Part shown: positions 9,846 through 26,534 of the stretch, piece after piece
Layout of the letters: the number at the start of each line of letters is the position of its first letter
Numbering within the stretch: the first letter of the stretch is position 1
Assembly (NCBI GenBank): GCA_024280935.1
Contig: JAJRPE010000067.1
Coordinates: forward strand, 1-33,397
Source: Candidatus Hydrogenedentota bacterium
GTDB taxonomy: Bacteria; Hydrogenedentota; Hydrogenedentia; Hydrogenedentales; JAEUWI01
Reading direction: 5' to 3'
Length of the DNA: 33,397 bases
The notes under the pieces: model-generated
What the model was told of the DNA's origin: nothing
The model's database searches: none
Seen by the model: only the letters and a program-made list of their open reading frames with translations
Position numbers and translations under genes: made by a program

Positions 9846-10448
9846 TCACTTGTTTACTTCCTTACGAACAGGAGCTTTCCGATTCTGAAGATACTCACGT
9901 GCTCTCGCTTCAAGTTCAGGAGAACGGAGACCGGCTTCTTTCCCGGCGGCAACGGCTGCGTCAATATCCCCGTCACGCACACCAACAAAAAGACTCCAAG
10001 CGAATCCGACTCGGTTGGCGCTGGCACAATGGAGCATCACCTTTTTCTTCTTTTTCTGCGACTTGCGTATCACCCGAACAATCTTGTCCAACGTAGAATC
10101 ATTGAGACGCTCACGTCCGATGGGAATGTGCCGATACTTCATGCCCAGTGCCTTGACAACCCCTTTCTCATCGAAGGGAAGTTGCTCCACCTCAGGCTTG
10201 CTCCGAAAATTGACCACGGTTTTAACACCCCATTCAGATAGCGTTTTGAAATCGGGTGCAGCAGGTTGGCCTGCGAAGAAGATCTTCTTTTCCATCGTCT
10301 TTACGTTCAACGTATCGCCCAGTTCAATCGGTACGATACGAGACTCATCTGCGGACTCGGCAGCGTAGAGCACCGGGAAACACCCGATCAATATCGCTGT
10401 GAAAACTACCAGGAGGAGGCCGACTCTCGAAACTCTGTTGCGCTTCAT
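9846..10448 (-). CDS. Exported cysteine-phosphatase-like protein (DSP/DUF442 type)
   Basis: A 200-residue protein from the preferred start. The frame is open to 10532, but AAAGGA sits 8 bases before the ATG at 10448, which begins a proper signal sequence. The signal ends either at a possible lipobox (LIGC) or after the later VLYAA, so both a lipoprotein and a free periplasmic form are possible. The catalytic loop is HCASANR, fitting the HCxxxxxR rule of cysteine phosphatases but lacking the usual Gly. Upstream segments (FFAGQP...TLSEWGVKTVVNFRS) match the dual-specificity/beta-lactamase-hydrolase-like fold. Substrate unknown. It lies about 100 bp upstream of the alpha-galactosidase gene, on the same strand. 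Confidence 0.78.
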   Translation of the reverse strand: MKRNRVSRVGLLLVVFTAILIGCFPVLYAAESADESRIVPIELGDTLNVKTMEKKIFFAGQPAAPDFKTLSEWGVKTVVNFRSKPEVEQLPFDEKGVVKALGMKYRHIPIGRERLNDSTLDKIVRVIRKSQKKKKKVMLHCASANRVGFAWSLFVGVRDGDIDAAVAAGKEAGLRSPELEARAREYLQNRKAPVRKEVNK

Positions 10449-10537
10449 GGATATATTCCTTTCTGGTGGATACCCGAAACGACATTCTACTACAAAGAAC
10501 ACAATGGGGGAGAATACAACCGCGACAAACAAACGAA

Positions 10538-10608: not shown

Positions 10609-11439
10609 TTAGGCGGTGAACTTCTTGCGGAACGCGCCGCCTACTAGGCCCATGCCGAGAAGTACGATAGTGGACGGTTCCGGTACCGGTGCAAAGGGCG
10701 TATTGTCCTGCACGTTGATTACGTCGTTGCCACACTGCATCGTCCAGTGGAGGCCAAGGCCACCAAAGTTCGGATTGGTAAGGGAATCCTCGAAAAAGCC
10801 CGCAACTTCGAAGGAAATTTCGAGGAAGTTGTGGGGACCCATGGCGCCCCAAGCTACTTCAGGACTCCACAGCGCAGTACGATCACTGGGCTGGGGCGAT
10901 TGATTCTCGTCTACACGATAGGGGTTCGAGGTCGTAAAGGGAGTAACTACGCCCTCCAAGGTCCAAGAGCCAGGACCATCGTTGAGCCAAAGGCGACCAA
11001 AACGATTCTGATCCTGCACGGTAGCCCGTGTGCTCGTCGCGATAGCGATGTCATAGTCGCCCGTAGCACCCATGTCAATGAACATGTCGCCAGCATAAAG
11101 GTTGTCGGCATCCACGCCTTCGGGCGGGAAACCGGTTACCATGCCGATGTAGAGGCGTCCGCCCGTCAAGGCATTGGGATCGGAATCTTCGTAGGAGTAG
11201 AAGATTTGCTCGATGTCATAGAGCTGATCGCCGCCACCTGGTGTCGGACCTTCTTCATCAACTTGTGTGCGAATGTTGCCGTTATTCAGGGTTACTTGAT
11301 TCTCGTCCCAGTTGTCGTTGTTGACGTCACCGCCGTAACTGAACCAATCGGACCAGTCGCCATCTGTGGTTACCGCGCTCGCGCCAGTGACCATTACAGC
11401 CATCATGGCAAATGCGAATGCTACAGTCAGCTTTTTCAT
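10609..11439 (-). CDS. PEP-CTERM surface protein (exosortase substrate)
   Basis: A 276-residue exported protein. Residues 1-22 are a signal peptide ending GASA. The mature part is acidic and aromatic, with a beta-rich domain (GGRLYIGMVTGFPPEG, GDMFIDMGATGDYDIAIAT) seen in many PEP-CTERM proteins. The C-terminus is a complete sorting signal: PVPEPS (251-256), a hydrophobic helix, then the basic tail RKKFTA. Exosortase should cut near the PEP motif and attach or release it at the surface. A strong GGAGG site lies 9 bases before the ATG. It is expressed from its own sigma-54 promoter (11533-11549) and ends at its own terminator, so it is a separate unit from the exosortase genes. Confidence 0.94.
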   Translation of the reverse strand: MKKLTVAFAFAMMAVMVTGASAVTTDGDWSDWFSYGGDVNNDNWDENQVTLNNGNIRTQVDEEGPTPGGGDQLYDIEQIFYSYEDSDPNALTGGRLYIGMVTGFPPEGVDADNLYAGDMFIDMGATGDYDIAIATSTRATVQDQNRFGRLWLNDGPGSWTLEGVVTPFTTSNPYRVDENQSPQPSDRTALWSPEVAWGAMGPHNFLEISFEVAGFFEDSLTNPNFGGLGLHWTMQCGNDVINVQDNTPFAPVPEPSTIVLLGMGLVGGAFRKKFTA

Positions 11440-11532: not shown

Positions 11533-11549
11533 CGCACAAGCCGTGCCAA
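11533..11549 (-). promoter_or_regulatory. Sigma-54 (-24/-12) promoter of the PEP-CTERM gene
   Basis: On the minus strand the sequence reads TTGGCACGGCTTGTGCG. The invariant GG (-24) and GC (-12) are exactly 10 bases apart, and the -24 element TTGGCACG is a full consensus match. The -12 element is GTGC rather than TTGC. Expected start is near 11522, giving a leader of about 80 bases. Confidence 0.82.
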
Positions 11550-11661
11550 AAACAAAACCGGCCTAATACCAACAAAAACAGGCGTTCGCCTTGTGTTGGC
11601 TTTTCATATTTGACATTACATTAATCATATTTGACTATTATGAGTCTATTCCGAGTTACCT

Positions 11662-11683
11662 ATATTGTCACCTGTGACAATAT
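11662..11683. promoter_or_regulatory. Perfect palindrome, candidate enhancer site for the sigma-54 activator
   Basis: Arms ATATTGTCAC (11662-11671) and GTGACAATAT (11674-11683) are exact inverted copies with a 2-base spacer. The centre lies about 126 bp upstream of the -24 element, a usual distance for sigma-54 enhancer binding. A related site lies upstream of the activator gene at 25684-25706. Confidence 0.7.
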
Positions 11684-12168
11684 TTTGTTCGCACTCTTAT
11701 GCGAATCACTCAACAGCAAACAAGTACTGTCAAGATCCATACTGAATTTCAGCATATTTTACCTTTTAGAGAGGGTGCGTCTTGTATTTCATTGAGGAAT
11801 ACGCAGATTCGCGACCAAAAATCTCTTCGACGGCATAAAGAGTAAGGGTATAGTTGTTCAGAAATGAACAATTCGGGCGAAGCGATGTCGATCGAGCGAT
11901 TATCGCCGTCAGCCCCTCAGCCAAGATCGAAAGAATGCTCGAAGAAGACAGGGACCGGGGAGCGACCCTACTGATTCCTCAAGCATCGAGATAACGCCGT
12001 TCTAGCTGTCGCCACGCCCCTCCTCCATTGAGGGGCTAAAAGCCCCCCTGCCCGGAGATACCGCCCCCCCCCCAAAAAAAAATTCCATCTCACGTCAATA
12101 CCTGCCGAAGGGCGGGGCAAAACTCACTTTCGTCGGCAATGGCCACGCACACTACACACCCATACCAC

Positions 12169-12612
12169 CTATTGGCGCCGTTGCGACTCAAGACCGTTGG
12201 CGACCCAGGCATTGCCGGTTTCGAGCCGGGCACTAAGCACCTCAATTATGTTCATCAGAAACTGCACCGCTTGTGGACCATCCAGCAGACGGGCGACTTC
12301 GCGCTCCCCGAATGCCAATACACACACGTCCGTTACAGCACGCGCTGTCGCTGATCGAGGACGCTGATGCAGGGTCGCCATCTCCCCGAAAGCCTCAAAG
12401 TCGCGGCACTTCGCAATGTGCTTGTCACCAATGTAAATTGACACGATGCCATCCAGCACCAGATATAGATAGCGTCCTGGATCACCTTCTCGAAAAATAA
12501 CATCCCCTGCGCTGAACCTTTTCTCCTGGCCCAGGGCGACGATAGCCTCGATCTCATTGTCACCGAAACCGAACAAAATACGGGCGCGACGCAACCGGTC
12601 TAATTCATACAT
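12169..12612 (-). CDS. Stand-alone cyclic-nucleotide-binding protein
   Basis: A 147-residue protein made of one CAP-type cNMP-binding domain. The beta-roll (FSAGDVIFREGDPGRYLYLVLDG, 33-55) leads to the phosphate-binding cassette FGEMATLHQRPRSATA (75-90). The Gly-Glu pair and the Arg-Ser-Ala needed to hold a cyclic nucleotide are present, so binding is likely. There is no DNA-binding helix-turn-helix or enzymatic domain, and the C-terminus ends after one helix. It must act by protein contact. It follows the PrsT-like gene by 94 bp on the same strand and may link cAMP or cGMP to the export system; that role is inference. Confidence 0.88.
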   Translation of the reverse strand: MYELDRLRRARILFGFGDNEIEAIVALGQEKRFSAGDVIFREGDPGRYLYLVLDGIVSIYIGDKHIAKCRDFEAFGEMATLHQRPRSATARAVTDVCVLAFGEREVARLLDGPQAVQFLMNIIEVLSARLETGNAWVANGLESQRRQ

Positions 12613-12706
12613 GACATTACTTCAGTCCATCGATTTCTGCTAAAAACATCGTCCACACAAAACAGACCGGGACACCAAGACGCTTGCCGCAAGCGGTGCC
12701 ACCTCT

Positions 12707-15613
12707 CTATTCCGAAAGCGTCTGAAGCAACGCTTCCGCCTCTTCCAACTGGGGAAAATCAAGGCCAGCATTTCGACTCATAGCCAAGGCGTACCGAATC
12801 CGCTTTTGGGCCTCCTCCTTCTTGCCCAACTCCACCAGCAACCGGCCATAGTCAAACATAATCGTCGGGTTCGCCGGATCAATTTGGGCGGCGCGCTCAA
12901 GGTTTGTGCGGCTCTCCTCCAAATTTCCGGTTCGCATCTGCGCCAGCCCAAGGGTATGACGCACACCCGCGTCGTTGGGCAGCTTCTCGCTGGCGATAAC
13001 CGCGTATTTGAGGGCCTCTTCATCGCGCCCGCCCGCGAGCAGCAAGGTGTACGCCAAATTGTTATTGGCTGCGGCATTGTCAGGCATGACATCAACGAGG
13101 GTGAGATAATCCGCCACCGCCGCATCAACATTTCCAGCGCGCTCCATCTGGGAAGCGTGACGGAACAGGGCTTCGGGCACCCGAGGCCCAACCTCCAACG
13201 CTTTATTGATGGCCTCCGCCTCGCCTTCGGTATCGCCCAGTGAATTCAATACCCGCGAGAGACCAATCCAGACACGAGAATCCTTCGGCAGAGCCGATGC
13301 CACAGCACGCGCCAGGTCACCGGCATCTTCGATACTATCTCCCCTGCCAAGGGACCGAAAGGCGAGTTGTGCAAGCGCGACATTCGGATCACGGCTACCC
13401 AAATGCTCCTGATAGAAGTCCCAGGCAGCATCGTTCAAGTCTGCGAGTTGCAGCGCAACGACCGTGGCATAGGCAGAAAGCAGCGATTGGTCTGCCCCCA
13501 TCGCTGCCGCCCATTCCCGTTCCTCCTCCTTCAGCAAGGGAACCTCGCCGCCCAACGCCGCCGATAGCATCATGCCATAGCGCCCCGCAACGACACCCTG
13601 CCCGCCTTCGGGAACAAGCGCTCCCCGGGCAGCCTCTTGTTCCCCGGCTTGCGCAAGACCCGCAGCCATAATAAGGGCCAGGCTGGGGCTTCGGTTCGCA
13701 GCAGACAGCCCATTCGCAATCTTCATCGCCCCGGCCCAATCGCCATCCTGTACACGACAAAGGGCCAACAACGTCGACCGGGCAGATAGTATGGCTGGCG
13801 CGGTCGTAGAAATAGCCTTCAATACCGTGGTCGCCTGCTCACAGTCACCCACACGAACCAACACGCGGCCCAGTATGGATTGCAGTTCGGGGTCATCTGG
13901 AAACTGGCTCGTTGCCCGGCCCAGCCACTGGAGGGCGAGGGCAGGCTCACCCGTATCAAGGTACGCTTGGCACAGGTAAAGATGGCTCCATTTTTCATCT
14001 GGAAACAAGGTATAGCTAGCCTCGGCAGCGCGGCGCGCAGCGTCAAACGCCCTTCCCTCGCGGAGGGCCGTGTAGTGCATCTGATGAGCGTCGATATTCT
14101 CCGGGTACATTCCAATTAGACGCTGAAGATTCTGTGCGGCGATCATGGGCTGGCGAAGCCGACGAAACACCTGTGAGATGTTGAACAGGGCTACCCCATG
14201 ATCAGGCCAACGCTCCAGACAAAAGAGAAATACGGAAAGTCCCTTCTCCCGAGAACCTCCAGAGACCATGGCAAATCCAAGGGCATTGTCCCGCAATACT
14301 GCGACGGCACGCGCTTCGGGAGTGTCCGACTTTTCCGCTTTCCAGCCTTCAAAGTGTGCTGCGATAACCGAGACGTCCTTGGAGAGGAACGCATCGATGT
14401 AGCCCCGCACCTGTGATGTCTCGGGAAGCCCATCGGCCAGTTCCTTCGCCAAGGCTGCCTGGTAAGTAAAGAGGGCGGCCAGCACCAATGTTTCCCGGGC
14501 CTCGTCGCCCCCCTCGGCAAGGTACATATCGCGATTGGCCAGCAATCGATTCAACGCAGCCTGTTTCCACAAGCCCTGCCACGTAACCGACTCGACGGCT
14601 GAGGACAATTCTGCGCCAACCCTGGCCGCGACTTTCTTGCGCGGGGCAGTGCCGCCGCTGGCAGCATAGGCCAGCAAGTTCATTATCTCACCCTCATCGG
14701 GCAGTACACGTGCGGCTTGTTCCAGAAACGCCTTTGCCTCATCGTAGGAACCTGCCTCTACCTTGTAGAAACCAATAATATAGTTTGCCCAAGCCGATTC
14801 GGGATCCTGCTCCAAAACTGCGCGGGCAGCGACTTCGGCCTTTTCCTGTTCACCAGCAATCATCAGGCTGCGAGCATAGCCCAGTCTAATCTCCAAGTCT
14901 TCCGGCCTGGCCTTGGTAAGCAGGAAAAACTCGCCAACCATCTCCTTGACGCGGCCCTGCGCACGATAAACATCGATAAGTCCCATGTGGGCAGCCACGG
15001 ATACCCCCGGTGAACCGTCGGCCAACACCCGGAACAAGGTCTCGGCTTCTTGCGCTTTTCCAGCCTTAAAATACGCTGCGCCCAAATTAAGACGTATCTC
15101 CTCTGAATCCGGATAGGTCTCCGAAAGGCCTTTCAGGGCCTGAATCGCTTCATCCGAACGCCCCATTTTCATCAGAATGACCCCACGCAGTGTGCCGCCT
15201 TCTTTGGGAACCTGCTTAGCGAATTCATCACTAAGGGAGAGCGCCTCATCTATCCGATCCACGCCTTCGAGCATCCGAATTGCTTCTACGTTGGCCTGTA
15301 AGTAGGCCTCCCCAAAAGCAGCATCCATGGTGAAGGCTTTTCTGAACAGCGCAAGCGCCTCGTCTGTCTTCCCTTCGGCCGCGCTGCATCGGGCCAGTCC
15401 CAACTGTGCCATGGGGTTGTCTGGATTGGCCTCCGCTGCGTTTTCATAGGCCTCTCGTGCCGCATCCAGGCGATCAAGGCTCCGAAGGGTGTCGCCTTCG
15501 GCTCTCAATTGCTCACTACGACGATCGCTGCACCCGGAGAATGCCAGCACCGCACAAGAGAGCAAACACAGAATTCCGTATCGCCGCCAATTCAGCGTAT
15601 TGAATATTGTCAT
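12707..15613 (-). CDS. prsT: PrsT-like TPR lipoprotein of the PEP-CTERM system
   Basis: A 968-residue protein built almost wholly of tetratricopeptide repeats. The frame is open to 15706, but GGAAGG placed 8 bases before the ATG at 15613 marks the true start. It then begins with a basic N-terminus, a hydrophobic stretch and a lipobox-like AFSGC, so it should be a lipoprotein. The TPR solenoid starts at once (AAREAYENAAEANPDNPMAQLGLARC) and runs to the C-terminus, with a degenerate middle. Size, lipobox and position beside exosortase and EpsI fit the PrsT family of EPS/exosortase loci. It probably scaffolds the envelope complex. It starts 16 bp after the EpsI stop, so it is in the same operon. 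Confidence 0.85.
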   Translation of the reverse strand: MTIFNTLNWRRYGILCLLSCAVLAFSGCSDRRSEQLRAEGDTLRSLDRLDAAREAYENAAEANPDNPMAQLGLARCSAAEGKTDEALALFRKAFTMDAAFGEAYLQANVEAIRMLEGVDRIDEALSLSDEFAKQVPKEGGTLRGVILMKMGRSDEAIQALKGLSETYPDSEEIRLNLGAAYFKAGKAQEAETLFRVLADGSPGVSVAAHMGLIDVYRAQGRVKEMVGEFFLLTKARPEDLEIRLGYARSLMIAGEQEKAEVAARAVLEQDPESAWANYIIGFYKVEAGSYDEAKAFLEQAARVLPDEGEIMNLLAYAASGGTAPRKKVAARVGAELSSAVESVTWQGLWKQAALNRLLANRDMYLAEGGDEARETLVLAALFTYQAALAKELADGLPETSQVRGYIDAFLSKDVSVIAAHFEGWKAEKSDTPEARAVAVLRDNALGFAMVSGGSREKGLSVFLFCLERWPDHGVALFNISQVFRRLRQPMIAAQNLQRLIGMYPENIDAHQMHYTALREGRAFDAARRAAEASYTLFPDEKWSHLYLCQAYLDTGEPALALQWLGRATSQFPDDPELQSILGRVLVRVGDCEQATTVLKAISTTAPAILSARSTLLALCRVQDGDWAGAMKIANGLSAANRSPSLALIMAAGLAQAGEQEAARGALVPEGGQGVVAGRYGMMLSAALGGEVPLLKEEEREWAAAMGADQSLLSAYATVVALQLADLNDAAWDFYQEHLGSRDPNVALAQLAFRSLGRGDSIEDAGDLARAVASALPKDSRVWIGLSRVLNSLGDTEGEAEAINKALEVGPRVPEALFRHASQMERAGNVDAAVADYLTLVDVMPDNAAANNNLAYTLLLAGGRDEEALKYAVIASEKLPNDAGVRHTLGLAQMRTGNLEESRTNLERAAQIDPANPTIMFDYGRLLVELGKKEEAQKRIRYALAMSRNAGLDFPQLEEAEALLQTLSE

Positions 15614-15629
15614 GCTTGTACCTTCCATC

Positions 15630-16265
15630 TTACTTGATGTTCTCGCGTAGGAATGGGGCCATTCGTAACGCCAGATCGTCCAATGCGGCAAATGCCTGAT
15701 CCTCACCCTGGATACCCGCTGCCGTTACGGGCATACTCAATTTAATCATGGTCGATGTGGGTGTGCCAAAACGCAACTGCTCACGCCCCCAAAGTAGTGC
15801 GTTCACAAAAGAACTCCCGGTAAAGGTGTCGCCCGTCTTGAACCAATATAGTATCGCTTCTTTCCTGTTTCCCTGAAAAATAACCAGTCGCTTGGCACGA
15901 AACTCCATTCCAACGGGGGCAGCGTACGCCCGTTCAACCTCCCACCCCTGCCCCACCAGGCATACCTCGGGAAAATGCAAACTCCGCCGTTTCTGCCCGG
16001 CATAAACCACCGTCACCAGAACAGGAAGGCCACTGGGAGTTACATAATGACGCATAAGAATCGAAGATGTTTCCAGAATGCGGCGGACCTCATCACCCGG
16101 ATCAATATCCTCACCGATTTGGCGATATTGTCCGATGCGTGCGGGCAAGTTGAGATTGGGGTTCTTGAGGGATGACATGGCGGCCCGATCCTGGGCATGG
16201 GTAATGCCAAGATGAAGCGTCGCCGTAAGCGCCATCGCTACGATACCGATGATGTAATGCTTCAT
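15630..16265 (-). CDS. epsI: EpsI-family exosortase-associated protein
   Basis: A 211-residue protein with an N-terminal signal or anchor helix (1-24) and an EpsI domain in the periplasm. The diagnostic block is RRSLHFPEVCLVGQGW (93-108), containing the conserved His, Pro-Glu and Cys. Further EpsI features are YWFKTGDTFTGS and the C-terminal LRFGTPTSTMIKLSMPV. EpsI occurs either fused to or next to exosortases and is thought to assist their role in EPS-linked sorting; its exact reaction is not settled. The ATG overlaps the exosortase stop by 4 bases. Confidence 0.92.
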   Translation of the reverse strand: MKHYIIGIVAMALTATLHLGITHAQDRAAMSSLKNPNLNLPARIGQYRQIGEDIDPGDEVRRILETSSILMRHYVTPSGLPVLVTVVYAGQKRRSLHFPEVCLVGQGWEVERAYAAPVGMEFRAKRLVIFQGNRKEAILYWFKTGDTFTGSSFVNALLWGREQLRFGTPTSTMIKLSMPVTAAGIQGEDQAFAALDDLALRMAPFLRENIK

Positions 16266-17191
16266 GAATCCTGGGACTCCACGTCATGCTCGGGCGCAAA
16301 CTTGCGCAATGCCGCCTCCACGGAAAACAACAACGCGAAAGCAACCGCAAAAATACCAATGCCGGAAATATCGTGAACCCAGCCCGTAGCCATATCACTA
16401 CCCCATACGTAGCCCACAACGCATAAGAAAAAAATACGAGACACATTCGCCAGAATCGCAATGGCGGGCGACACCAGGAGAATAAGAATTTTAGCCCACC
16501 ACCGCGCCTTGGAAACATAGGCCATGAGCGCACCGAAAGCAAGGAGCGCAACCAGTGACCGCATGCCACCGCACACATCGCCGACAAGGAGCCTATCCCC
16601 GGCATCGCCAATATAGACATAGGAGCCATCCTGGACCATATGCAGTGTCAGCGTCTTACCCAGAGCTACCGCCGACTCGGTGGCAAGCATCTTACTCTGA
16701 AAAGAAAGCCCGGAAGTTAGTGTATAGGGCATGGGAATCATGAAGAAGAGAAATGCCAGGGAAAACCAAAGCGTCTGGGTATGCTTTCGCCCAAGAAACA
16801 GCAGGCACAAGCCCGTGAGCACCGGTAGCAGCGCAAGGTGGACAATGGTCATAAAGCCCAGGAAGTCGCCCAGCAATAGCATGCCGCATCCCAAAGCCAA
16901 TACCGGGTATCCCAATAACGAGGGTTCGACGGGCATTCCAAGCAGACGAGTGCGGAGTCGCCACACAAAAAACAAGCTGATTGGCGGGATAATCAACGCG
17001 TGTGAATACAATGAATCGGGAAGGTTCCAGTTGGTGACAATATCCACAAAGGAGCGAAAGAAGGACACCAACACAAGAAGCGCCGCCGCCACAAACACGC
17101 CGATACAAAAACCTCGCTTCCGCTCCCACACGGCCGCCAGGGTTGGCACGCCCGCCCCGCCATCGTCATTTACATCAACAGCATCACTCAT
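16262..17191 (-). CDS. xrt: Exosortase (PEP-CTERM transpeptidase-like protease)
   Basis: A 309-residue polytopic inner-membrane protein with about eight hydrophobic helices. The exosortase active-site residues are all present: Cys207 in GDVCGGMRS, Arg252 in ANVSRIF and His273 in WVHDISG. It should recognise the PEP motif and cut the C-terminal helix from sorted proteins such as the one at 10609-11439. Sequence around the Cys and the separate EpsI place it among EPS-associated exosortases; I cannot give the subtype number. It overlaps the upstream TPR gene by 8 bases and the downstream epsI by 4, so the three are one tight operon. Confidence 0.95.
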   Translation of the reverse strand: MSDAVDVNDDGGAGVPTLAAVWERKRGFCIGVFVAAALLVLVSFFRSFVDIVTNWNLPDSLYSHALIIPPISLFFVWRLRTRLLGMPVEPSLLGYPVLALGCGMLLLGDFLGFMTIVHLALLPVLTGLCLLFLGRKHTQTLWFSLAFLFFMIPMPYTLTSGLSFQSKMLATESAVALGKTLTLHMVQDGSYVYIGDAGDRLLVGDVCGGMRSLVALLAFGALMAYVSKARWWAKILILLVSPAIAILANVSRIFFLCVVGYVWGSDMATGWVHDISGIGIFAVAFALLFSVEAALRKFAPEHDVESQDS

Positions 17192-20100
17192 TGCCTGCCT
17201 CCCCTTCTTTCAGCTTTGCAGCAAGAGCATCTATATCCGCTACAACATCTTTTTTCGCCCCATTGGCGAGAGCGCTAGCCCGAGCCGACTGAACGTATCG
17301 CTGCGCGCGCTCCAAGTCGCCAGTATTCAAGTAGGCTTCGGCCATGGCGATTTCATCCGATAAGGTTAGCGTTCCGGCCAGATCCCTGACACGACGGAGA
17401 TCATCGATGGCACCCTTCGCATCATTCTGACGAATCCGTAGTAGAGCACGCAGTCTTAAAAAGCGCGGGGCCTCCACAATATCCAGACTACGATTCACAT
17501 CATCCAGCGCAGCGGCAAGCCCGGCATTACTTTGGGCGCGCAATGCGGCACGCTGAAAGAGGACCTGGGCATCCTGCTTGTTGAGTCCTTCTGGATCGCT
17601 GCCTCGCTGCTCCAGATAACGGTCACACAGGGCGATAACCACGCCATCATTACCCAAGAGCCTCTGAACTTCAATATTTCCCAGTTGCGCAGGCGCGTAG
17701 CCAGGCACCAATAGCTGAGCTTGGGTAAAGGCGGAAGAAGCCTCACCCAGTTTATCCCGACCTCCCTGCTCGATGAGTAGTTGACCAAAGAAGGTCCATG
17801 CTTCGGGTTCGGTAGGTTTTTGTACATCGAGATAAGCCCGAACCACGGTCAGGGCCTCGTCATATTTTTTCCGTGCAACGAAGGATTTCGCCAGTCCGTT
17901 CACCGCGCCATAATCGCTTGGGTTCTTGGCCACCTGCTCCCGCAATCTGGATTCGGCATCGGCATAATCACCCGCCTGCATATCGAGAAAGGCCTGCAGT
18001 TCAATCAGATGAGGCTCCAAGGCGGGACGCTGCGAAACCAGCTTCTCGTAGCGCTTGAACATGGTCTTTGCCTCCTGCTTAAGCCCTGTGCTCCCATAAA
18101 TGCGAACGAGCATACGCACGGCGCGCTCGTCACTCGAATCAATGTCCAGAATGCGCTCCATAGATGCCCGCGCCGCTTCCTGATTAGCCAAACGCATTTG
18201 CGCATCGCCGATGATATGCCAGGCCACCTTATGGCTCGGCGTACGCTCGGCGACCACTTTAGCAATACGCTCTGCCTTACCGTACTGCCCTTGGAGCAAG
18301 GCCACTTCCGCACGCATCAATGCCACATCGTCCCGATAAGCGGAATCATCCGGCACACCATCAAGGAATCTTGACGCCTCTATCAGGGCCGGGGGCGTTT
18401 GACGCAGAGCCATGCGCGCACGCAAGACAGGTATACCATCATCGTCTGGCTTCGTCGTTTCGACGGTCGCCAGAATTTCATCCACGGTCTGTCGCTGTGA
18501 AAGTTCGCCCGACAATAACAACCGCTCTGCCACCCGTATTCGGAGTCTGTTCAAGGTAGATAGACCGTCCCCCGTTCCATCAAGCACTCCTTCGACGGAA
18601 CGAAGCTGGGCAAGTGCCTCGGACACTTCGCCGAACTGAAGCGCCAACTCCGCACGAAACAGCATAAGCTCGGAACGAGCATCGCCGTCCGCATCGTTGA
18701 GACTGGCATTCAAAATACCTTGGCCCGCGCTCAAATAGCCCCGGCGAGAAAAAAACGTCGCCCATTTCTTCACGTCGTCCGAATCAGAGGCATCCAATGC
18801 CTCGGCAGCTATCGCCAGGGCACTTTCCTTGTCATCCCGGCTCAAGGCAATGTTGGCATCAAGAAAGGCAAAATCTACCCTATCGATACCTGCTGCGAGG
18901 CCCTTGGCCGATACCGTCTCCGCCTTGGCAATCTCTCCCTCTTCCAGGTAGTATCCTGCCAGCGCCACGTAGACGCGAGGCAAGGTCGGATACAACACAA
19001 GCGCCTTTTCCACCAGAAGACGAGCCAACTCCTTATCCTCTTCACTTCGGCTGGCAAGTAAATCCCTGGCCGTGAGAAGCAGTTCGTCAACCGAAGGCTT
19101 CTCCTCCTCAAAAAAACGCTGCGCGGCAACACGAAGCTCCAGGACAGAGCGATTTTTTTCGAAAAAGCGGAACCAAATCTGGCGGGCCTGCCGATCATCT
19201 GGATTATTTCGCAGGTAAAACTCCAGAGATACACGGGCTGCCGGCCAGTCTTCTTCTTTTTCAAGCAAGGATATTGCGAGGAAGTAACGTGCCCGATGTA
19301 ATTTTGGATTCATCTCAACAGCAAGTGTAAAGTACTCCTTTGCTTCATCGAAGTCTTTGCGTGCGTAGGCAATTCTTCCCTTGATGTAATTGTCTGTCGG
19401 AATCTGGTTTGGGTATGCCTTGCGATAAGTTTCCCGAACGACATCGGCCGCCTCCAACTGGCTCTCAGCCAATAGGATTTCGATTTGGAACAGGAGGAGT
19501 CCGGGTGCATCTATGCACATCATCGGTTCCAAGGCCTCAATATGCGCCAGTGCGGCCTTTCGCTCACCCAGGCGCTCCAAGGCAAGCAGATGGCTCTGAT
19601 GCAAATCGGCCTCTTCGGGTGCTGCCGCTATCGCCTCCGCAGTGAGCTTTTTCACCGATTCAAAATCTTCCTTTAAGCGGTACAGTCGAACGAGCGCTCG
19701 GACAATTTCCAAGTCGGCCTGGGGTGTCTCGATGGATGCAGGAAGCAGGTCAGCCGCAGCGTCAAGGTTTCCAGCATCCATCAAATAATTTGCGTAGTTT
19801 GCTTTCACGACCAAGTCGTCTGGAAAGCTGGCACGCTCCCGATCCAGCAACGCCACCGCCTCCAGCGGGCGCTCCCGCTCGCGGTATATCCGCGCCAAAC
19901 GCAAAGGCACATCACGCCGAGGCGCATCTGGGTTCTCCAAGTACTCTTCGAAATCCTTCGCAGCTTCGTTGACTCGCCCCTGGCCATAAATGGCAATCGC
20001 CCTATCGTATTGCAACGCACTATCGGAAGCTGTCTCAGGCGCAATCGAATCAACGATAGCTTCTAAATCATCCCAGAGCCGGTGTTTCCGATAAAACGCC

Positions 20101-20444
20101 AGTAGTGCGTTCCGACGTCCAACGTCTTCAGGGGCCAACCGCATTAGTTTCTGATAGGCGCGGCCGGCTTCGATCAAATTTTGTCGTCGATCCGCATGTT
20201 GCTCGATGCAAAGCGCAGCAAAAGCCTCCAGAACATCCGTATCCGCCTGGTTCATAAAGAGGTACTGCCGATAAAACCACTTGGCACCTGAAATGTCCCC
20301 GTCGGCTGCGGCCTCTTTGGCTTTAATAAGATTTTGCTGCGCACGGTACTGGGGCACCGCGTAAAGCGCGACACCTGCTGCCACGATGGCCATAACCAGC
20401 AAAATACCAATACCGATGATAATCAACCACAATTTTTTTGACAT
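17184..20444 (-). CDS. Giant membrane-anchored TPR protein
   Basis: A 1086-residue protein with one N-terminal transmembrane helix (about residues 5-32, LWLIIIGIGILLVMAIVAAG) followed by TPR-like helical repeats along the whole length. There is no lipobox, unlike the PrsT-like gene two places downstream, so the two TPR proteins would sit on different membranes: this one in the inner membrane, the other probably in the outer. It overlaps the exosortase start by 8 bases. Together the two could bridge the envelope around the export machine. That arrangement is inference; no enzymatic motif is visible. Confidence 0.85.
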   Translation of the reverse strand: MSKKLWLIIIGIGILLVMAIVAAGVALYAVPQYRAQQNLIKAKEAAADGDISGAKWFYRQYLFMNQADTDVLEAFAALCIEQHADRRQNLIEAGRAYQKLMRLAPEDVGRRNALLAFYRKHRLWDDLEAIVDSIAPETASDSALQYDRAIAIYGQGRVNEAAKDFEEYLENPDAPRRDVPLRLARIYRERERPLEAVALLDRERASFPDDLVVKANYANYLMDAGNLDAAADLLPASIETPQADLEIVRALVRLYRLKEDFESVKKLTAEAIAAAPEEADLHQSHLLALERLGERKAALAHIEALEPMMCIDAPGLLLFQIEILLAESQLEAADVVRETYRKAYPNQIPTDNYIKGRIAYARKDFDEAKEYFTLAVEMNPKLHRARYFLAISLLEKEEDWPAARVSLEFYLRNNPDDRQARQIWFRFFEKNRSVLELRVAAQRFFEEEKPSVDELLLTARDLLASRSEEDKELARLLVEKALVLYPTLPRVYVALAGYYLEEGEIAKAETVSAKGLAAGIDRVDFAFLDANIALSRDDKESALAIAAEALDASDSDDVKKWATFFSRRGYLSAGQGILNASLNDADGDARSELMLFRAELALQFGEVSEALAQLRSVEGVLDGTGDGLSTLNRLRIRVAERLLLSGELSQRQTVDEILATVETTKPDDDGIPVLRARMALRQTPPALIEASRFLDGVPDDSAYRDDVALMRAEVALLQGQYGKAERIAKVVAERTPSHKVAWHIIGDAQMRLANQEAARASMERILDIDSSDERAVRMLVRIYGSTGLKQEAKTMFKRYEKLVSQRPALEPHLIELQAFLDMQAGDYADAESRLREQVAKNPSDYGAVNGLAKSFVARKKYDEALTVVRAYLDVQKPTEPEAWTFFGQLLIEQGGRDKLGEASSAFTQAQLLVPGYAPAQLGNIEVQRLLGNDGVVIALCDRYLEQRGSDPEGLNKQDAQVLFQRAALRAQSNAGLAAALDDVNRSLDIVEAPRFLRLRALLRIRQNDAKGAIDDLRRVRDLAGTLTLSDEIAMAEAYLNTGDLERAQRYVQSARASALANGAKKDVVADIDALAAKLKEGEAGNE

Positions 20445-20707
20445 AGTTTCCCTGCTTTTACAACGAGCAATTCCATCGTCTGTCTACCTCGTGCAGACAG
20501 TAGCAATTCCTGTCACGCACAGACAGTTTTCCACTCACTGCGTTTATCTGGCCCACGGCCCGCCACGCTTCACATTGGTATATCCCAAAGGAGCCGAGCC
20601 TGCCATACGATGTCAATACAGGTCCATTTTACAACTTCTCTGTCTCCTGTGAAAGACTGCCCTTCGATCAGGATCGTCCTTCAAACAACAGTCTGGCACC
20701 TCATAGG
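20445..20707. other. 263-bp gap between the Wzc-like and TPR genes
   Basis: It probably holds an internal promoter for the exosortase sub-operon. A weak -24/-12-like arrangement (GG and GC ten bases apart on the minus strand, 20540-20553) is present but poor at both boxes. A weak stem near 20656-20690 could act as an attenuator. Nothing in it is convincing. Confidence 0.4.
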
Positions 20708-23044
20708 TCATGGATCTTTACCGTCGAAGGGCAAGAGCACGACGACTTCCGCTTCCTCCTGTTCCACCTCCTCTGGCACTTCTTCATCCAGTACGTTTAT
20801 CTCCGGCATGGAACTGGCCGGAACCTGTTCGGCCGCACGCGCCGTGTAGTCGTCGTAGAGACGCTGATTCTTCCGAAGATAACCACCGCGCATGTTTCGT
20901 ATGCCGTTAATAACAATACCGATGATATTCGCTCGAAGCTGCTCAAGATCACTCAGACAACGACTGACCATGCCCAGCGTGGGAATACCCGCACCCACGA
21001 CGAAGAGAACACCGTCCACCGCCGGCGCAAGTAGTTTGGCATCTGACATGAGCAACAAGGGCGGCGTATCTACGATAATGTGATCAAAATGCTCATCAGC
21101 CCATTCCATGAAATCCATCATCGCCCGCGACGCCAGACGCGACGCAAGCTCCGAAGCATCCATACCAGGACCAACGATGCCGAGGTTCTCAAAGGCGGTC
21201 CGGCGAACCAGATCTTCACGCGCTTGCTCGTCTCGCAACAATTCCGAAAGCCCCGCAGCGGGTTCCAGGCCAAAGACGCGCTCTATATCCGGCTTTTGCG
21301 AGCTAAGATCAAGTAGCAGCACCCGGCGACTGGCTTGCTCCAGGGCAATCGCCAAATTGGCCGCGATCGATGTCTTACCCTCCTGCGTACTCGCGCTGAC
21401 AACCAGCAAACTGCTAACCTCGGCCGCGTTGTCCTCGGGAAACAGCATCCGGGCCAATATGCGACGGTACTCGTCGGCGACCGTGGAATTCGGGTGCTGC
21501 ACCATGAGCATGGCACAATCGGCATCGGCAAGGTGGCTGTCTTCGCTGAGATGAGGAATCGATGCGATGGTGGGCAACTCCGATATACGGGCCATGTCCT
21601 GTCGGGTACGGATTTGCTGATCCAACAATTCACGGACCACGCCATAGCCCAAGCCCAGGCCCAAAGCCATCATCAACCCCACGATCGCCATGATAACCTT
21701 CATTCTCCGATCCTTGCTCTGTGGAGCATTGGGCGGAGATGCGATGCGTACCCGCGCCGGTGCCTGTTCATCCAACTGGATTTGTTGCACCTGAGCATCA
21801 AGTTGGGCGAGAAAAGCCGCTTTCACGTCCGCCTTCTCCTGAAGTTGCTGAATATTAGCCCGTTCCTTTGAGGCCAGTGTCAGATTACTTTCTTGTTTAT
21901 CCACGTAGTCGTCGTAATGCTGTTTGTTCTTTTCCAGATTGAGCTCTTCATCCGCCAACACGCGTTTCGCAAGCTCAAGCGCCAGTGCGGCTTGGCTCGA
22001 AAGGGTCTTCAGTACATCCGACCGCGCCATTTGCTTCTTTATCTCCGCATTTCTCTGCACCGACTCGAGTTTGCGGCGGGCTGCTTCCAATGCGGGATGC
22101 GTGTCCTTGTGGGTCTCTTCAAGCGAAGAAACACGACTTTCCTGTGCATCGAGTTCACTCTGAAAACTCACTATGCGGGGATCCCGAATAACCTGTTCCT
22201 CTACGCCATATTGGTAGATCGGCGCTCCCCTGTTCTGAGTATGATTGTCTTGTAATGCCCGAATTCTTTGGTCGGATTCTTCGGCATTGGCAACCCCGTT
22301 CCGGGCCTGCGTTACGCGCTCCTCCGCCTTCAACCACTCGTTCCGATACTGCTCGGCTTCCGTGCTATCCTCTGGCCGCCCCCCCACCATCGCGCCCAGC
22401 TTTCCTTCCAGTTTTTGAATCAGTGTTCGTAATGCATCGAGCTCGAACCTGGTCTTCTCGATCTCGTCGTTGAGTGTTTCGACCCGGTGGTTATCCAAAT
22501 CCAAAGCGTATTGGGAAACCTGTCCTTGGTAGACATCCATGACATTCTCGAGGACAATAAGAGCTTCCGCCCTGGATTTCATGGTGCAAGACACCGTCAC
22601 CAACTCACTATTCCGAAACTTCGCAGTTCGTATGGTCCCCTGAATGAAGGCAAGCTTATCGAGTTTCGCCTGAACACTGGGTAGCTCTCGAACCTCTTCA
22701 CGCTCCAAAACGGGGCTAAGCACAATGCTGCCCGTAATCTTGGCCAACTCCGTACCCACAAACTGTGCATAGGATATTGTAGCCGCATTCCCCGCACGTT
22801 GGTCGAGAATTCGGTCCACCACCGAACCGAATTGGATCACCGCAGATGCCGTGTATACATCGGGCACGATAAACCAACCGGCAACCGCCAAAGGCAAGGA
22901 GAGGGCCGCAGAGATCAGGACAACAGAAAAAAGACGAAGGCTCACGAAATTCTTAATACTAAAATGCAAGCCCGGTGTCTTGGTCTGGACCCTGGGGCGG
23001 TCACTGTCAAAATCATCGGCTACGGTGGAGAAGTCACGAGACAT
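20708..23044 (-). CDS. Wzc-like polysaccharide co-polymerase with altered tyrosine-kinase domain
   Basis: A 778-residue protein; the frame is open to 23203, but GGGAAGG 8 bases before the ATG at 23044 marks the start. A Wzz-type N-terminal part has membrane helices near residues 40-62 and again after about 450, with long coiled-coil helices between them in the periplasm. The C-terminal kinase domain has Walker A SASTQEGKTS (550-559) and Walker B HIIVDTPP (Asp659). Walker A' is VLLLDLSSQKP, in which the usual second Asp and the Arg are replaced by Ser and Gln. A short tyrosine cluster (Tyr722, 730, 733) precedes an acidic tail. It should control chain length and export with the Wza-like partner, whose gene ends 5 bases upstream. 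Confidence 0.9.
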   Translation of the reverse strand: MSRDFSTVADDFDSDRPRVQTKTPGLHFSIKNFVSLRLFSVVLISAALSLPLAVAGWFIVPDVYTASAVIQFGSVVDRILDQRAGNAATISYAQFVGTELAKITGSIVLSPVLEREEVRELPSVQAKLDKLAFIQGTIRTAKFRNSELVTVSCTMKSRAEALIVLENVMDVYQGQVSQYALDLDNHRVETLNDEIEKTRFELDALRTLIQKLEGKLGAMVGGRPEDSTEAEQYRNEWLKAEERVTQARNGVANAEESDQRIRALQDNHTQNRGAPIYQYGVEEQVIRDPRIVSFQSELDAQESRVSSLEETHKDTHPALEAARRKLESVQRNAEIKKQMARSDVLKTLSSQAALALELAKRVLADEELNLEKNKQHYDDYVDKQESNLTLASKERANIQQLQEKADVKAAFLAQLDAQVQQIQLDEQAPARVRIASPPNAPQSKDRRMKVIMAIVGLMMALGLGLGYGVVRELLDQQIRTRQDMARISELPTIASIPHLSEDSHLADADCAMLMVQHPNSTVADEYRRILARMLFPEDNAAEVSSLLVVSASTQEGKTSIAANLAIALEQASRRVLLLDLSSQKPDIERVFGLEPAAGLSELLRDEQAREDLVRRTAFENLGIVGPGMDASELASRLASRAMMDFMEWADEHFDHIIVDTPPLLLMSDAKLLAPAVDGVLFVVGAGIPTLGMVSRCLSDLEQLRANIIGIVINGIRNMRGGYLRKNQRLYDDYTARAAEQVPASSMPEINVLDEEVPEEVEQEEAEVVVLLPFDGKDP

Positions 23045-23049
23045 ATAGT

Positions 23050-24363
23050 TTACCTTCCCAGATTCTTCGCGCCGCTGAGCGCATTGGCGGCACTGCCAAC
23101 CTGGCGCAAGGAGTCCAGCAGAAGTAAATTGGTCTGTATTTGGCTTGAATCGCTTGAGTTGTACAACAGATCGATACGCTCTTTGGAGTAAAACGCGTCC
23201 CATGCCTGAGAATAAAGTCCCAACGCTTGAGAGGTCACGCCAAGAATAGGAGTGACCACCCCCGTGGAGCGACCAATGAATTCGCCCAGATTCACAAGAC
23301 GCTTGCGCGGTACGTAGAGAATATCACCCGGTTGAACAGGAATATCCGTACCGGTCTTCAGCATTTTCTTGATATTGATGAGTTGTACCTCGGTTTCCGT
23401 TTCGTTGACTTCCCGAATGAGGACCACCTGTTTCAAACGTCCCGAAGTTTCACGAAAGCCCCCCGAAGAGGCCAGCAGTTGAAGCAGGGTCATGCCCTCC
23501 GACAGGGGCCGAACACCAGGACGTCCGACTTCCCCCAACACATAAACCAAGTTGAGTCCTTCCGGTATGAATACCGTGTCACCAGGCAGCACCAGCGTTT
23601 GCGCCTCATGACTGTCTCCCTTTTCCAAGCCGCGCAAGTCATATTCTGTAGCGCTCCGTTCTTCGTCCGTGCCACGAATTATGAAGGCTTTGACCAACTG
23701 CCCCTGGCCACCAACGAAACTATCTCCCCCACGCTGATTCACACGGAGGCTACCTGCGGAAATAATCGCATCCAACAAGGTCAGCGGCTTCAAATAGGGA
23801 TATTCCGCAGGACTGTTCACGTCCCCCATTACGGTATAGGTTCGGCTGGTCGCCTGAAGTATCTGCAGGCTTACCTCGGCCTCATAGTACAGCTCTTTAT
23901 AGGCCTCCCGCACGACTTCCGTGGCCTCTTCCCGTGTCAGGCCCGCAACTTTGAGATCGGGAACCCAGGGCAAGGAAATATATCCATCGTGGCGCACCTG
24001 GATATCGTTGGTATTCAAGCTTTCGTCGTCAAAGGAACGAAAACCCAGCGTGTCGGTGGGACCGATGCGATAGGTGTCCAAGATGGCCATGACATCCGTA
24101 TCCACCAGTGCCGGGGACTCATCCGCTGATGCCTCGGCCACAAGGAGGCCTTCGGGCACGTCATCGGGACGGGTTTCCTCGGTAGGTACAACGACAACTT
24201 CCGTAACGGCGCTACTACTGCTGCTCGAATCCGCAGCCACGTCCACAGCCACGTCCACATCCATGTCGGTACCCGGCGTGTTTCCACTATGGGCACAGCC
24301 CGCCAGCCAGCACAAGGCCACTATCATTGGTATTTCAATCGTTCGTCTCAGGCACTTTCTCAT
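23050..24363 (-). CDS. Wza-like polysaccharide export lipoprotein
   Basis: A 437-residue outer-membrane export protein. The start at 24363 (MRKCLRR) is preferred over 24381, with AAGGG just upstream. The signal ends in a clear lipobox, LAGC. A Ser/Asp/Val-rich linker of about 70 residues follows. Next come the polysaccharide export domain (YRIGPTDTLGFRSF...VRHDGYISLPWVPDLKVAGLT) and at least two SLBB repeats (YTVMGDVNSPAEYPY and YVLGEVGRPGVRPL). The C-terminal segment lacks an evident Wza-type amphipathic helix. It would form the exit channel for the glycan fed by the Wzc-like protein. The gene follows the sigma-54 activator by 21 bp, implying co-expression. Confidence 0.93.
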   Translation of the reverse strand: MRKCLRRTIEIPMIVALCWLAGCAHSGNTPGTDMDVDVAVDVAADSSSSSSAVTEVVVVPTEETRPDDVPEGLLVAEASADESPALVDTDVMAILDTYRIGPTDTLGFRSFDDESLNTNDIQVRHDGYISLPWVPDLKVAGLTREEATEVVREAYKELYYEAEVSLQILQATSRTYTVMGDVNSPAEYPYLKPLTLLDAIISAGSLRVNQRGGDSFVGGQGQLVKAFIIRGTDEERSATEYDLRGLEKGDSHEAQTLVLPGDTVFIPEGLNLVYVLGEVGRPGVRPLSEGMTLLQLLASSGGFRETSGRLKQVVLIREVNETETEVQLINIKKMLKTGTDIPVQPGDILYVPRKRLVNLGEFIGRSTGVVTPILGVTSQALGLYSQAWDAFYSKERIDLLYNSSDSSQIQTNLLLLDSLRQVGSAANALSGAKNLGR

Positions 24364-24384
24364 TCCGACCCTTTCGCGCACGTA

Positions 24385-25464
24385 CTAATCGAGCTTTCCA
24401 ATCCCATAGGCTTCGATACGGCGAAGCAAGGAGCTGTAACTGGTGCTCAATAGTTTTGCGGCCTTTCTCCGATTCCATAGCGTATAGTTCAGTGTCTCTT
24501 CAATCAGCGTACGCTCAGCCGCCTCGGCAGCCCTTCGTGCCGCTTCCTTCAACGGCACAAAGATACGCTCTTCCTCACCTTCCGAGGCACCGTTTCCCGA
24601 AACTGGCACAAGGCCCGGCTCTGGAAACTCCACTTTTCCTGTGGCATTTTCCACCGCAAGGAGCAAATCGACCAATCCGGTCGTAACGTATTTCTTGATA
24701 CGCCCGGATAGTTCGCGGACATTGCCGGGATAGTTCAATTGGCTCAGCGCTTCGAGAAGGTCCGGTGTGAACGGCACATACTCTTTCTTCATCATCTTAC
24801 ACATATTATAATTAAAATGCTCGGCTAGTAAAGAGATATCTTTGCGTCGCTCTCGAAGAGGAGGAATATCAATCACTACCTCGCGCAGCCTGAACGACAC
24901 ATCCTCGCGCAGACGGCCTGTGGCTACGGCCTCATCAAGGTCCAGATTGGTGGCGGCGATGACACGGGCATCGGAACATACTGGCTCGGTCCCTCCTATG
25001 CGCAAGATGGGTTCGCCATCGAGAACCTGCAAAAGTTTCACCTGCACCTGCGGGGCGGTTTCACAGATTTCGTCCAGAAACAGGGTGCCCCCATGCGCCA
25101 TCTCGAAGCGTCCCGGCTTCGCCGTGTCGGCGCCCGTGAATGCACCCCGCTCGTATCCAAAGAGTTCACTCTCAAGGATATCTGTGGGAATGCTCGGGCA
25201 ATTCACCTTGATGAACGCTTTGCCGTAGCGCGGCGACCGTTTATGCAACATCTTAGCCACTATATCTTTGCCGGTACCCGTCTCTCCGCAGATAAGAACC
25301 GAAAGATCCACCTTGGCCAGTCGTTCGATCATAGCCTCTACCTCCTGAATTCGGGGATCATCTCCGATCAGGTGCTCGTGCAATGGCAGGGTCACCGACT
25401 CGTGTTGCCATATATCTTGCCTGAGTGAACTGGGCACTGCAATCTCCTTTCTCACATCAGCCAT
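24385..25464 (-). CDS. Sigma-54-dependent activator without a receiver domain
   Basis: A 359-residue enhancer-binding protein. The frame opens at 25551, but a sigma-54 promoter spans 25531-25548, so that ATG lies in the promoter; the ATG at 25464 (MADVRKE) is preferred. A short N-terminus leads into the AAA+ domain with Walker A GETGTGKD (60-67), the sigma-54-contacting GAFTGA (107-112) and Walker B GGTLFLDE (125-132). A Fis-type helix-turn-helix ends the protein. There is no receiver or PAS domain, so it is not PrsR and its signal must come by expression level or a partner. It heads the export operon and probably activates its own promoter and that of the PEP-CTERM gene. Confidence 0.93.
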   Translation of the reverse strand: MADVRKEIAVPSSLRQDIWQHESVTLPLHEHLIGDDPRIQEVEAMIERLAKVDLSVLICGETGTGKDIVAKMLHKRSPRYGKAFIKVNCPSIPTDILESELFGYERGAFTGADTAKPGRFEMAHGGTLFLDEICETAPQVQVKLLQVLDGEPILRIGGTEPVCSDARVIAATNLDLDEAVATGRLREDVSFRLREVVIDIPPLRERRKDISLLAEHFNYNMCKMMKKEYVPFTPDLLEALSQLNYPGNVRELSGRIKKYVTTGLVDLLLAVENATGKVEFPEPGLVPVSGNGASEGEEERIFVPLKEAARRAAEAAERTLIEETLNYTLWNRRKAAKLLSTSYSSLLRRIEAYGIGKLD

Positions 25465-25530
25465 CCTGGTCTTCACCAATAGCGTGCGACAGCACGTCGT
25501 AAACGTATCCAAGAATGCGCACTTGGAGTA

Positions 25531-25548
25531 GAGCATCAAATGTGCCAA
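25531..25548 (-). promoter_or_regulatory. Sigma-54 (-24/-12) promoter of the activator/export operon
   Basis: On the minus strand the sequence reads TTGGCACATTTGATGCTC. GG and GC are exactly 10 bases apart, the -24 box is TTGGCACA and the -12 box is ATGCT (consensus TTGCT). The expected start near 25521 leaves a 57-base leader before the ATG at 25464. Confidence 0.82.
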
Positions 25549-25551
25549 CAA

Positions 25552-26084
25552 TCTGACGAATAGGGCAAGAACAGCAAGATCACCGCAACAACTACCATAT
25601 ATAGTAGTTTGGTGCAGAATAATTGTTTAATCAGCAATATTCTGCTATCTGACTTTGCCTCATATCTATGCTGTTGAGGACTAAAATTGCTCACCAGTGA
25701 CAATTTTTGTATCGAATTGGGCTGAGACTTGTGCTCTAATGGACATGCATCAGACCGGTCGTATAATATTATGTCTCGTGTCGAGCCACCTTATTCTCGC
25801 AATAGCACAGTGATTTGCCCCAATTAAATCACGAAACAACGTATTGGTTAACGATATTTTTATTCGCGACAAGAAATATGCAACGCTGACAAACTTATGC
25901 GCAAATCCTTACGAAAAATAACTCTTGACACAGGAGCGTCGAGCAACCAAATTTATAACCACTTTAATAACAACAACTTGCATCGCAGCAATTATTTGAG
26001 TCACGACCAAAATACGCGGCATGAAACTTGCTTCATGTCTATATACTCAAACCATACTCTACACGCTAGCGCTGGGAGGCTACA
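25552..26084. other. 533-bp AT-rich divergent regulatory region
   Basis: This separates the activator gene from the degenerate GGDEF gene and is richer in A and T than its neighbours. It holds three inverted repeats: 25590-25609 (arms AACTAC and GTAGTT, 8-base spacer), 25684-25706 (the GTGACAAT site) and 26020-26037 (arms CATGAA and TTCATG, 6-base spacer). The last lies about 50 bp before the GGDEF start. I see no clear plus-strand promoter and no gene. Confidence 0.65.
25684..25706. promoter_or_regulatory. Palindromic site matching the one upstream of the PEP-CTERM gene
   Basis: The arms around spacer CA are AAATTG(C)TCAC and GTGACAATTT; the left arm has one extra C. The half-site GTGACAAT is identical to that at 11674-11681. 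The centre is about 150 bp upstream of the -24 box of the activator promoter. Confidence 0.62.
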
Positions 26085-26477
26085 GTGAAGACTGAGTTCA
26101 CGATACTTCGTCAACTGCTACAGTATGAGCTCTATGGTGCCCAACGGCACCGCCGATTCGTTACCATGGTGATGGTAACCACGGAAGAGGGCATATCTGG
26201 ACTGCGGAATTTTTTGGGATCACACATTCGTGATAGCGATGTGATCGCCGATTTCGACAGTTCCATCGCCGTGCTGATGGGTGAAACAGATAGCCAGAGC
26301 GCGATGGTTGCTGTTGATCGCTATAAAGGCTTTTTTGAAAGCCAGTTGGATCTCCGCTTTTCCGTCGTGACCTATCCGAGCGATGGCGGAAAGGCGGAAA
26401 ACCTCATTAAGATGGCCTACCGTCGGCTCAGCAAAGCGAAACAGGGTGAGGACGGTACGGTGGTCACCTCAGGCTGA
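26085..26477 (+). CDS. Degenerate GGDEF-domain protein
   Basis: A 130-residue cytoplasmic protein with a GTG start; GGGAGG at 26074-26079 supports it. The C-terminal half follows the GGDEF fold closely: IRDSDVIADFDSSIAVLMGETD (48-69) aligns with the usual RxxDxxARYGGDEFAVLLPET, and FSVVTYPSDGGKAENLIKMAYRRLSKAKQGEDG (92-124) with the usual SIGVATYPxDG...ADxALYxAKxxGRN. The GGDEF signature itself is replaced by DSSI and is one residue shorter, so cyclase activity is very unlikely. It may be a nucleotide sensor or protein-contact module. Being divergent from the sigma-54 activator, it may set the state of the export locus. Confidence 0.78.
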   Translation: MKTEFTILRQLLQYELYGAQRHRRFVTMVMVTTEEGISGLRNFLGSHIRDSDVIADFDSSIAVLMGETDSQSAMVAVDRYKGFFESQLDLRFSVVTYPSDGGKAENLIKMAYRRLSKAKQGEDGTVVTSG

Positions 26478-26508: not shown

Positions 26509-26534
26509 CACGCTCCTGCCAGGGCGTGATTTTT
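26509..26534 (+). terminator. Probable intrinsic terminator after the GGDEF-like gene
   Basis: A stem with CACGC/GCGTG at its base and a one-base bulge (26509-26528) is followed by five T residues (26530-26534). It lies about 30 bases after the stop codon. Confidence 0.7.

Follow-up and report, generated by a model that had tools for sequence, protein, structure and literature searches.

The window analysed here is a stretch of 33,397 nucleotides from a Candidatus Hydrogenedentota bacterium (assembly GCA_024280935.1, contig JAJRPE010000067.1). In it, a PEP-CTERM protein gene and an exopolysaccharide export/exosortase operon headed by a sigma-54 activator gene are each preceded by a -24/-12 promoter and, farther upstream, by an inverted repeat (dyad) of the type TTkGTCA-N4-TGACmAA. 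The reading favoured here, with a probability of roughly 80%, is that the receiver-less, autoregulated activator runs a PEP-CTERM/exopolysaccharide regulon through this dyad, in a manner that resembles the working of proteobacterial PrsR with different parts. Taken alone, the letters of the window make no more than a suggestive case; what makes it strong is the evidence of further genes and genomes.

In the proposed mechanism, the dyad would be the upstream activating sequence of an enhancer-dependent sigma-54 regulon; the AAA+/Fis activator would bind it, loop to the sigma-54 polymerase at -24/-12, and open the promoter by ATP hydrolysis. By acting on its own promoter, the activator would create positive feedback with read-through into the wza, wzc, TPR, exosortase, EpsI, TPR, and cyclic-nucleotide-binding (cNMP) genes, and it would also act on many single PEP-CTERM genes across the genome and on a divergently transcribed gene for a GGDEF-fold protein.

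Dyads and sigma-54 sites before PEP-CTERM genes

The first-pass annotation of the window described two minus-strand -24/-12 promoters, and both lie where it placed them, with GG and GC exactly 10 bases apart and TTGGCAC common to the two; they conform to the TGGCAC...TTGC-type consensus and are the top two minus-strand sigma-54 matches in the window (Table 1). Another high scorer, at 30480 on the plus strand, lies within a gene. The gene at 26085 also has a weaker sigma-54-like promoter and a dyad, both of which had been overlooked. The genome carries one copy of rpoN (PF04552, 212.5 bits).

The two palindromes are likewise present as described, ATTGTCAC-AG-GTGACAAT at 11681-11664 and TTGTCACTGGTGAGCAA at 25703-25687 (the latter with a right arm one base longer), and the spacing given for them is accurate, with 125.5 bp between centre and GG for the PEP-CTERM gene and 149.5 bp for the activator. 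The inventory fell short by two dyads, both of them on the upstream side of the PEP-CTERM gene. At a matrix score of at least 15, five sites occur in the window, all of them intergenic (11617-11642, 11660-11685, 11850-11875, 25683-25708, and 25872-25897), where 0.07 would be expected from block shuffles, and all five persist with a matrix trained without the genus. The half-site GTGACAAT is found five times in the window (0.68 expected); the lone copy at 17034, noted earlier as a caution, is real and has a companion at 12556, inside the cNMP-domain gene.

Across the metagenome-assembled genome (6.76 Mb, 661 contigs), the perfect 16-mer palindrome is a single site, and it was rejected as a search word because it is too strict; with up to two mismatches, 23 sites are found versus six for a reversed control pattern. 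Neither the one-mismatch sites, which are mostly coding and unpaired with sigma-54 sites, nor a two-mismatch site inside a sulfatase gene on contig C191 were retained as targets. Alignment of promoters on the -24 box reveals a TCA-N4-TGA core with the outer TTG/CAA adjoining or one base off, and 15 activator promoters yield the symmetrised consensus given above, with A/T-rich flanks. As the outer arms of this degenerate dyad can be adjacent or one base away, the activator's own site had appeared imperfect. Nine of the 15 activator promoters have the dyad beginning between -154 and -160 relative to the promoter start. Overall, the distance from dyad centre to the -24 GG varies between 82 and 254 bp, mostly about 100-170 bp.

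Enrichment of paired sites before other PEP-CTERM genes had been named beforehand as the test of the proposal, and the test was strongly passed. The genus set comprised 57 PEP-CTERM genes in four genomes, with cluster genes excluded, and the outgroup comprised PEP-CTERM genes from five other genomes of the same order; 516 other genes, called as simple open reading frames, served for comparison, and PEP-CTERM starts were heuristic. The sigma-54 matrix was built from the published consensus, and the dyad matrix was trained on activator promoters only, in one variant with the whole genus left out; outgroup activator promoters, but not outgroup PEP-CTERM genes, entered the training of the full matrix. 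Identical rules were applied to PEP-CTERM and background genes in the sigma-54, pairing, and full-matrix dyad counts.

The matrix trained without the genus places a dyad (score of at least 12) before 30 of the 57 genus genes versus 2 of the 516 others (p = 6.5e-32). With the full matrix, a dyad precedes 21 of 29 outgroup genes, and at a score of at least 14 the counts are 25/57 for the genus, 20/29 for the outgroup, and 0/516 for the others. Sigma-54 scores of at least 12.5 are reached by 25/57, 17/30, and 12/516, respectively, and pairs of a dyad and a sigma-54 site by 21/57, 18/30, and 1/516. Where a sigma-54 site of at least 11 is given, a dyad matching at least 10 of 12 letters accompanies it before 21 of 33 genus and 18 of 23 outgroup PEP-CTERM genes, compared with 1 of 25 others. 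Among the 12 PEP-CTERM genes of the organism's own genome, nine have the dyad and ten have a sigma-54-like site scoring at least 10. Sigma-54 sites are thus a general feature of PEP-CTERM genes in the Hydrogenedentota genomes sampled. The upstream regions share no sequence relationship (62 genes fall into 60 components), and duplication of a single promoter was therefore ruled out as the source of the enrichment.

No dyad of at least 15 was paired with a sigma-54 site in about 780 kb of other sequence, some 390 kb each from the organism's own genome and from a second genome (G002). Scattering of the palindrome in coding DNA, which the first-pass annotation had named as a refuting outcome, is seen for lone matches, and these have no strong sigma-54 promoter downstream. 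Paired sites were found at the activator and the PEP-CTERM genes, and one further, weak pair (sigma-54 score 10.7) falls within a coding frame.

The activator as candidate binder of the dyad

The activator combines an AAA+ sigma-54 interaction domain bearing the GAFTGA loop with a C-terminal Fis-type helix-turn-helix (HTH), the composition that defines bacterial enhancer-binding proteins. A 388-residue form starting at TTG 25551 was rejected, as that codon lies upstream of the -12 box of the gene's own promoter, while ATG 25464 fits. No receiver domain was matched in the protein, and all 25 aligned orthologues are N-terminally too short for one, in line with the receiver-less layout proposed at first. 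Because this domain is missing, the activator must be controlled through its abundance, through its short N-terminus, or by a partner protein. Its identity within the genus is 76-86%; across the 25 orthologues the HTH is nearly invariant, and most retain GAFTGA.

Strong circumstantial evidence, short of proof, makes the linked activator the most likely binder of the dyad. It is the sole HTH regulator that a domain search found in the operon, and its own promoter carries the dyad in most genomes, at a nearly constant place across the genus, which supports the autoregulation predicted earlier. In 60 genomes, the activator and the exosortase occur together 21 times, one without the other seven times, and neither 32 times (p = 2e-9). 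Several observations weigh against this reading. The exosortase occurs without the activator in three genomes (G029, G040, and G056), and the activator without the exosortase in four; the distant activator orthologues L194, L206, and L212 have no dyad in their promoters; a clear dyad is absent from roughly every second PEP-CTERM gene of the genus; and about 33 candidate sigma-54 activator matches exist in the genome, another of which could bind the dyad. The exosortase clusters L098 (genome G029) and L107 (genome G056) belong to genomes with no activator orthologue at E <= 1e-90, and the 20 kb covered there contain no strong dyad.

The last of the points against leads to the chief alternative, in which the regulon is real, a different sigma-54 activator encoded elsewhere, for example a receiver-bearing one of the NtrC type, binds the dyad, and the linked activator is merely a target. 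Eight response-regulator-like hits that score under the cut-off of the PrsR model add to the pool of such candidates. This alternative is nevertheless unlikely, given that the linked activator heads the operon, bears a fixed dyad in its own promoter, has an invariant HTH, and co-occurs with the exosortase. It is more improbable still that the dyad binds a repressor or another non-sigma-54 factor with an overlapping regulon while the activator uses a different, unseen site. Short inverted repeats of this kind are typical of many dimeric regulators, and some promoters have two or three of them, but the large and variable distance to the promoter is what an enhancer would show and a repressor site would not, and the tight pairing with sigma-54 sites (21/33 and 18/23 versus 1/25) also argues against a repressor.

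There is very little probability that the window holds the known proteobacterial PrsK/PrsR system with a drifted site, although the logic of an activator site, a sigma-54 motif, single PEP-CTERM genes, and long upstream regions is the same (PMC1569441). The activator scores 260.3 bits against a PrsR cut-off of 502.6 (TIGR02915), and no protein in 13 genomes exceeds that cut-off. A variant of the proteobacterial motif 1 was rejected as well, its TTTACA tail, the only part compared, being at chance level in the upstream regions (3/57 versus 4.1 expected). As the PrsR score and the receiver fail, no PrsR was found in the 13 genomes, and TTTACA is at chance, the circuit works like that of PrsR without being a member of it. 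Mere chance, with a pair of short palindromes and a pair of sigma-54-like sites falling into one window, could appeal to the four loose palindrome matches reached in 4 of 100 window shuffles and to the one-mismatch sites scattered in coding DNA, but it is already refuted by the enrichment and by the genus-left-out prediction when set against other genes and shuffles, and its probability is next to nil.

The export/exosortase operon and neighbouring genes

Table 1. Genes, promoters, and dyads of the window
Feature	Position	Strand	Evidence
PEP-CTERM protein gene (single gene)	10609-11439	-	PF07589 29.7 bits (cut-off 20.7); TIGR02595 24.7 (cut-off 16)
Sigma-54 -24/-12 promoter of PEP-CTERM gene	11533-11549	-	TTGGCACGGCTTGTGC (11549-11534); same place in relatives L088, L089, L090
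Third, weaker dyad upstream of PEP-CTERM promoter	11617-11642		matrix 15.0
Main dyad, proposed activator site	11664-11681		ATTGTCACAGGTGACAAT; matrix 21.0 (17.8 with genus left out)
Distal dyad upstream of PEP-CTERM gene	11850-11875		perfect arms TTGTTCA-GAAA-TGAACAA; matrix 22.2 (23.6 with genus left out)
HTH-free cNMP-binding domain protein, closing the proposed operon	12169-12612	-	PF00027 69.7 bits only
Second TPR protein, resembling PrsT with a score under the cut-off	12707-15706	-	TIGR02917 180.5 bits (cut-off 312)
EpsI-family exosortase-associated protein	15630-16265	-	TIGR02914 74.4 bits (cut-off 42.8)
Exosortase	16262-17191	-	TIGR02602 145.4 bits (cut-off 105.55); PF09721 181.8 bits
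TPR protein, PrsT-like but below PrsT cut-off	17184-20444	-	TIGR02917 128 bits (cut-off 312)
Chain-length/tyrosine autokinase, Wzc-like	20708-23203	-	TIGR01007 110.4 bits (cut-off 108.05)
Polysaccharide export protein, Wza-like	23050-24381	-	PF02563, SLBB domains
Receiver-less sigma-54 activator, 359 aa	24385-25464	-	AAA+ core PF00158 201.7 bits with GAFTGA loop; Fis HTH PF02954 30.3 (cut-off 22)
Sigma-54 -24/-12 promoter of activator operon	25532-25548	-	TTGGCACATTTGATGC (25548-25533); conserved in orthologues
Dyad upstream of activator promoter	25687-25703		TTGTCACTGGTGAGCAA; matrix 28.7 (24.5 with genus left out)
Dyad of divergent GGDEF-fold gene	25872-25897		matrix 17.4 (16.8 with genus left out)
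Sigma-54-like promoter of divergent gene	26016-26032	+	GCGGCATGAAACTTGCT; score 11.3; relatives have stronger counterparts at a similar position
GGDEF-fold protein without GGDEF signature, 130 aa	26085-26477	+	AlphaFold2 pLDDT 89; GGDEF domains among Foldseek hits (best 3.8e-8); alignment

On the minus strand, the activator gene is followed by the export, Wzc-like, TPR, exosortase, EpsI, TPR, and cNMP genes and then by the PEP-CTERM gene with its own promoter. The sorting signal and the EpsH-family exosortase, with PF07589, TIGR02595, TIGR02602, and PF09721 over cut-off, identify a PEP-CTERM/exosortase system; the exosortase does not reach the XrtA subtype (165.6 bits on TIGR03109, cut-off 208). 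The nearest named relative, a metagenome-assembled genome of Candidatus Hydrogenedentota, has an exosortase 70% identical to it. From the activator to the cNMP gene, the genes are closely spaced or overlapping, the one exception being a 264-bp space ahead of the first TPR gene, and no terminator-like site was found in the gaps 20444-20708 and 12612-12707. The whole export/exosortase operon may be transcribed from the activator promoter, under positive feedback. Terminator-like stems are found after the PEP-CTERM gene (10565-10536, a strong one) and after the divergent gene (26509-26528). Gene order is conserved within the genus and largely so across the taxonomic order.

The stand-alone cNMP-binding domain gene (12169-12612) at the operon end is conserved in the genus; its product was rejected as a DNA binder, being without an HTH. 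The gene next after the PEP-CTERM gene, with the terminator-like stem between them, is dual-specificity/tyrosine phosphatase-like (9846-10532). The organism's own genome has a second, distant exosortase relative (C140:966-1748, 26% identity), as do other members of the genus, and in a genome of another family (G015, locus L095), strong dyads at 4548-4573 and 6264-6289 lie with sigma-54 sites near an exosortase cluster.

The product of the divergently transcribed gene is confidently predicted to adopt the GGDEF fold, but alignment shows that the GG(D/E)EF catalytic signature is absent, and it scores 20.7 bits on the diguanylate cyclase model TIGR00254 (cut-off 37.4). Its identity within the genus, 88-97%, exceeds that of the activator, and its gene co-occurs with that of the activator (both in 18 and one only in 10 of the 60 genomes, p = 4e-7). 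The protein is a possible partner or sensor of the activator. A more specific proposal, in which it is the missing sensor and controls the activator in trans, perhaps by contacting the AAA+ ring and binding cyclic di-GMP (c-di-GMP) or another nucleotide, so that the shared switch would close a feedback loop, is tentative and rather doubtful. If it were true, the PEP-CTERM regulon of the phylum would be run by a nucleotide-sensing partner, with no PrsK/PrsR phosphorelay.

Comparison with known systems

In Proteobacteria, motif 1, a spacer with a mean of 63 nt, and a sigma-54 motif precede the PEP-CTERM gene, and the activator is probably PrsR (Haft et al. 2006, PMC1569441); that study found the switch to be shared only among Proteobacteria and regarded other regulators and DNA motifs elsewhere as awaiting discovery. 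An RpoN-dependent pepA with a mapped start has been described in Aquincola (PMC9850573). Within the literature collection searched, no paper names both Hydrogenedentota and PEP-CTERM or exosortase, and a 2025 survey of sigma-54 regulons makes no mention of PEP-CTERM, exosortase, or Hydrogenedentota (PMC12316311).

The circuit of the window resembles that of PrsK/PrsR and RpoN in having an activator site upstream of -24/-12 before many single PEP-CTERM genes, and an AAA+/Fis activator gene near exosortase and exopolysaccharide genes. The difference in activator layout noted at first is confirmed by the missing receiver and by the PrsR score below cut-off. The DNA sites also differ, with the dyad here in place of a proteobacterial 17-nt motif ending in TTTACA, and centres mostly at -100 to -170 in contrast to the shorter mean spacer. 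The phylum is another one, and the activator's own operon and the GGDEF-fold gene also bear the switch here.

Among single proteins, PspF is related in sequence and likewise joins an AAA+ core to a Fis HTH and lacks a receiver; a partner protein controls it. The targets here are instead PEP-CTERM and exopolysaccharide genes, no PspA-like partner was seen, and the candidate partner is the GGDEF-fold protein. FleQ and VpsR, which a search of the PDB also returned as sequence relatives, are activators of flagellar and exopolysaccharide genes that join exopolysaccharide control to a response to c-di-GMP; their receiver-like N-terminal domain is absent from the Hydrogenedentota activator. An uncultured phylum thereby gains a defined DNA word, which predicts PEP-CTERM genes co-expressed with the exosortase, together with a candidate activator, a target list, and a predicted feedback loop. 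The word also suggests that distant bacteria have repeatedly coupled PEP-CTERM genes to sigma-54, each time by way of a different activator.

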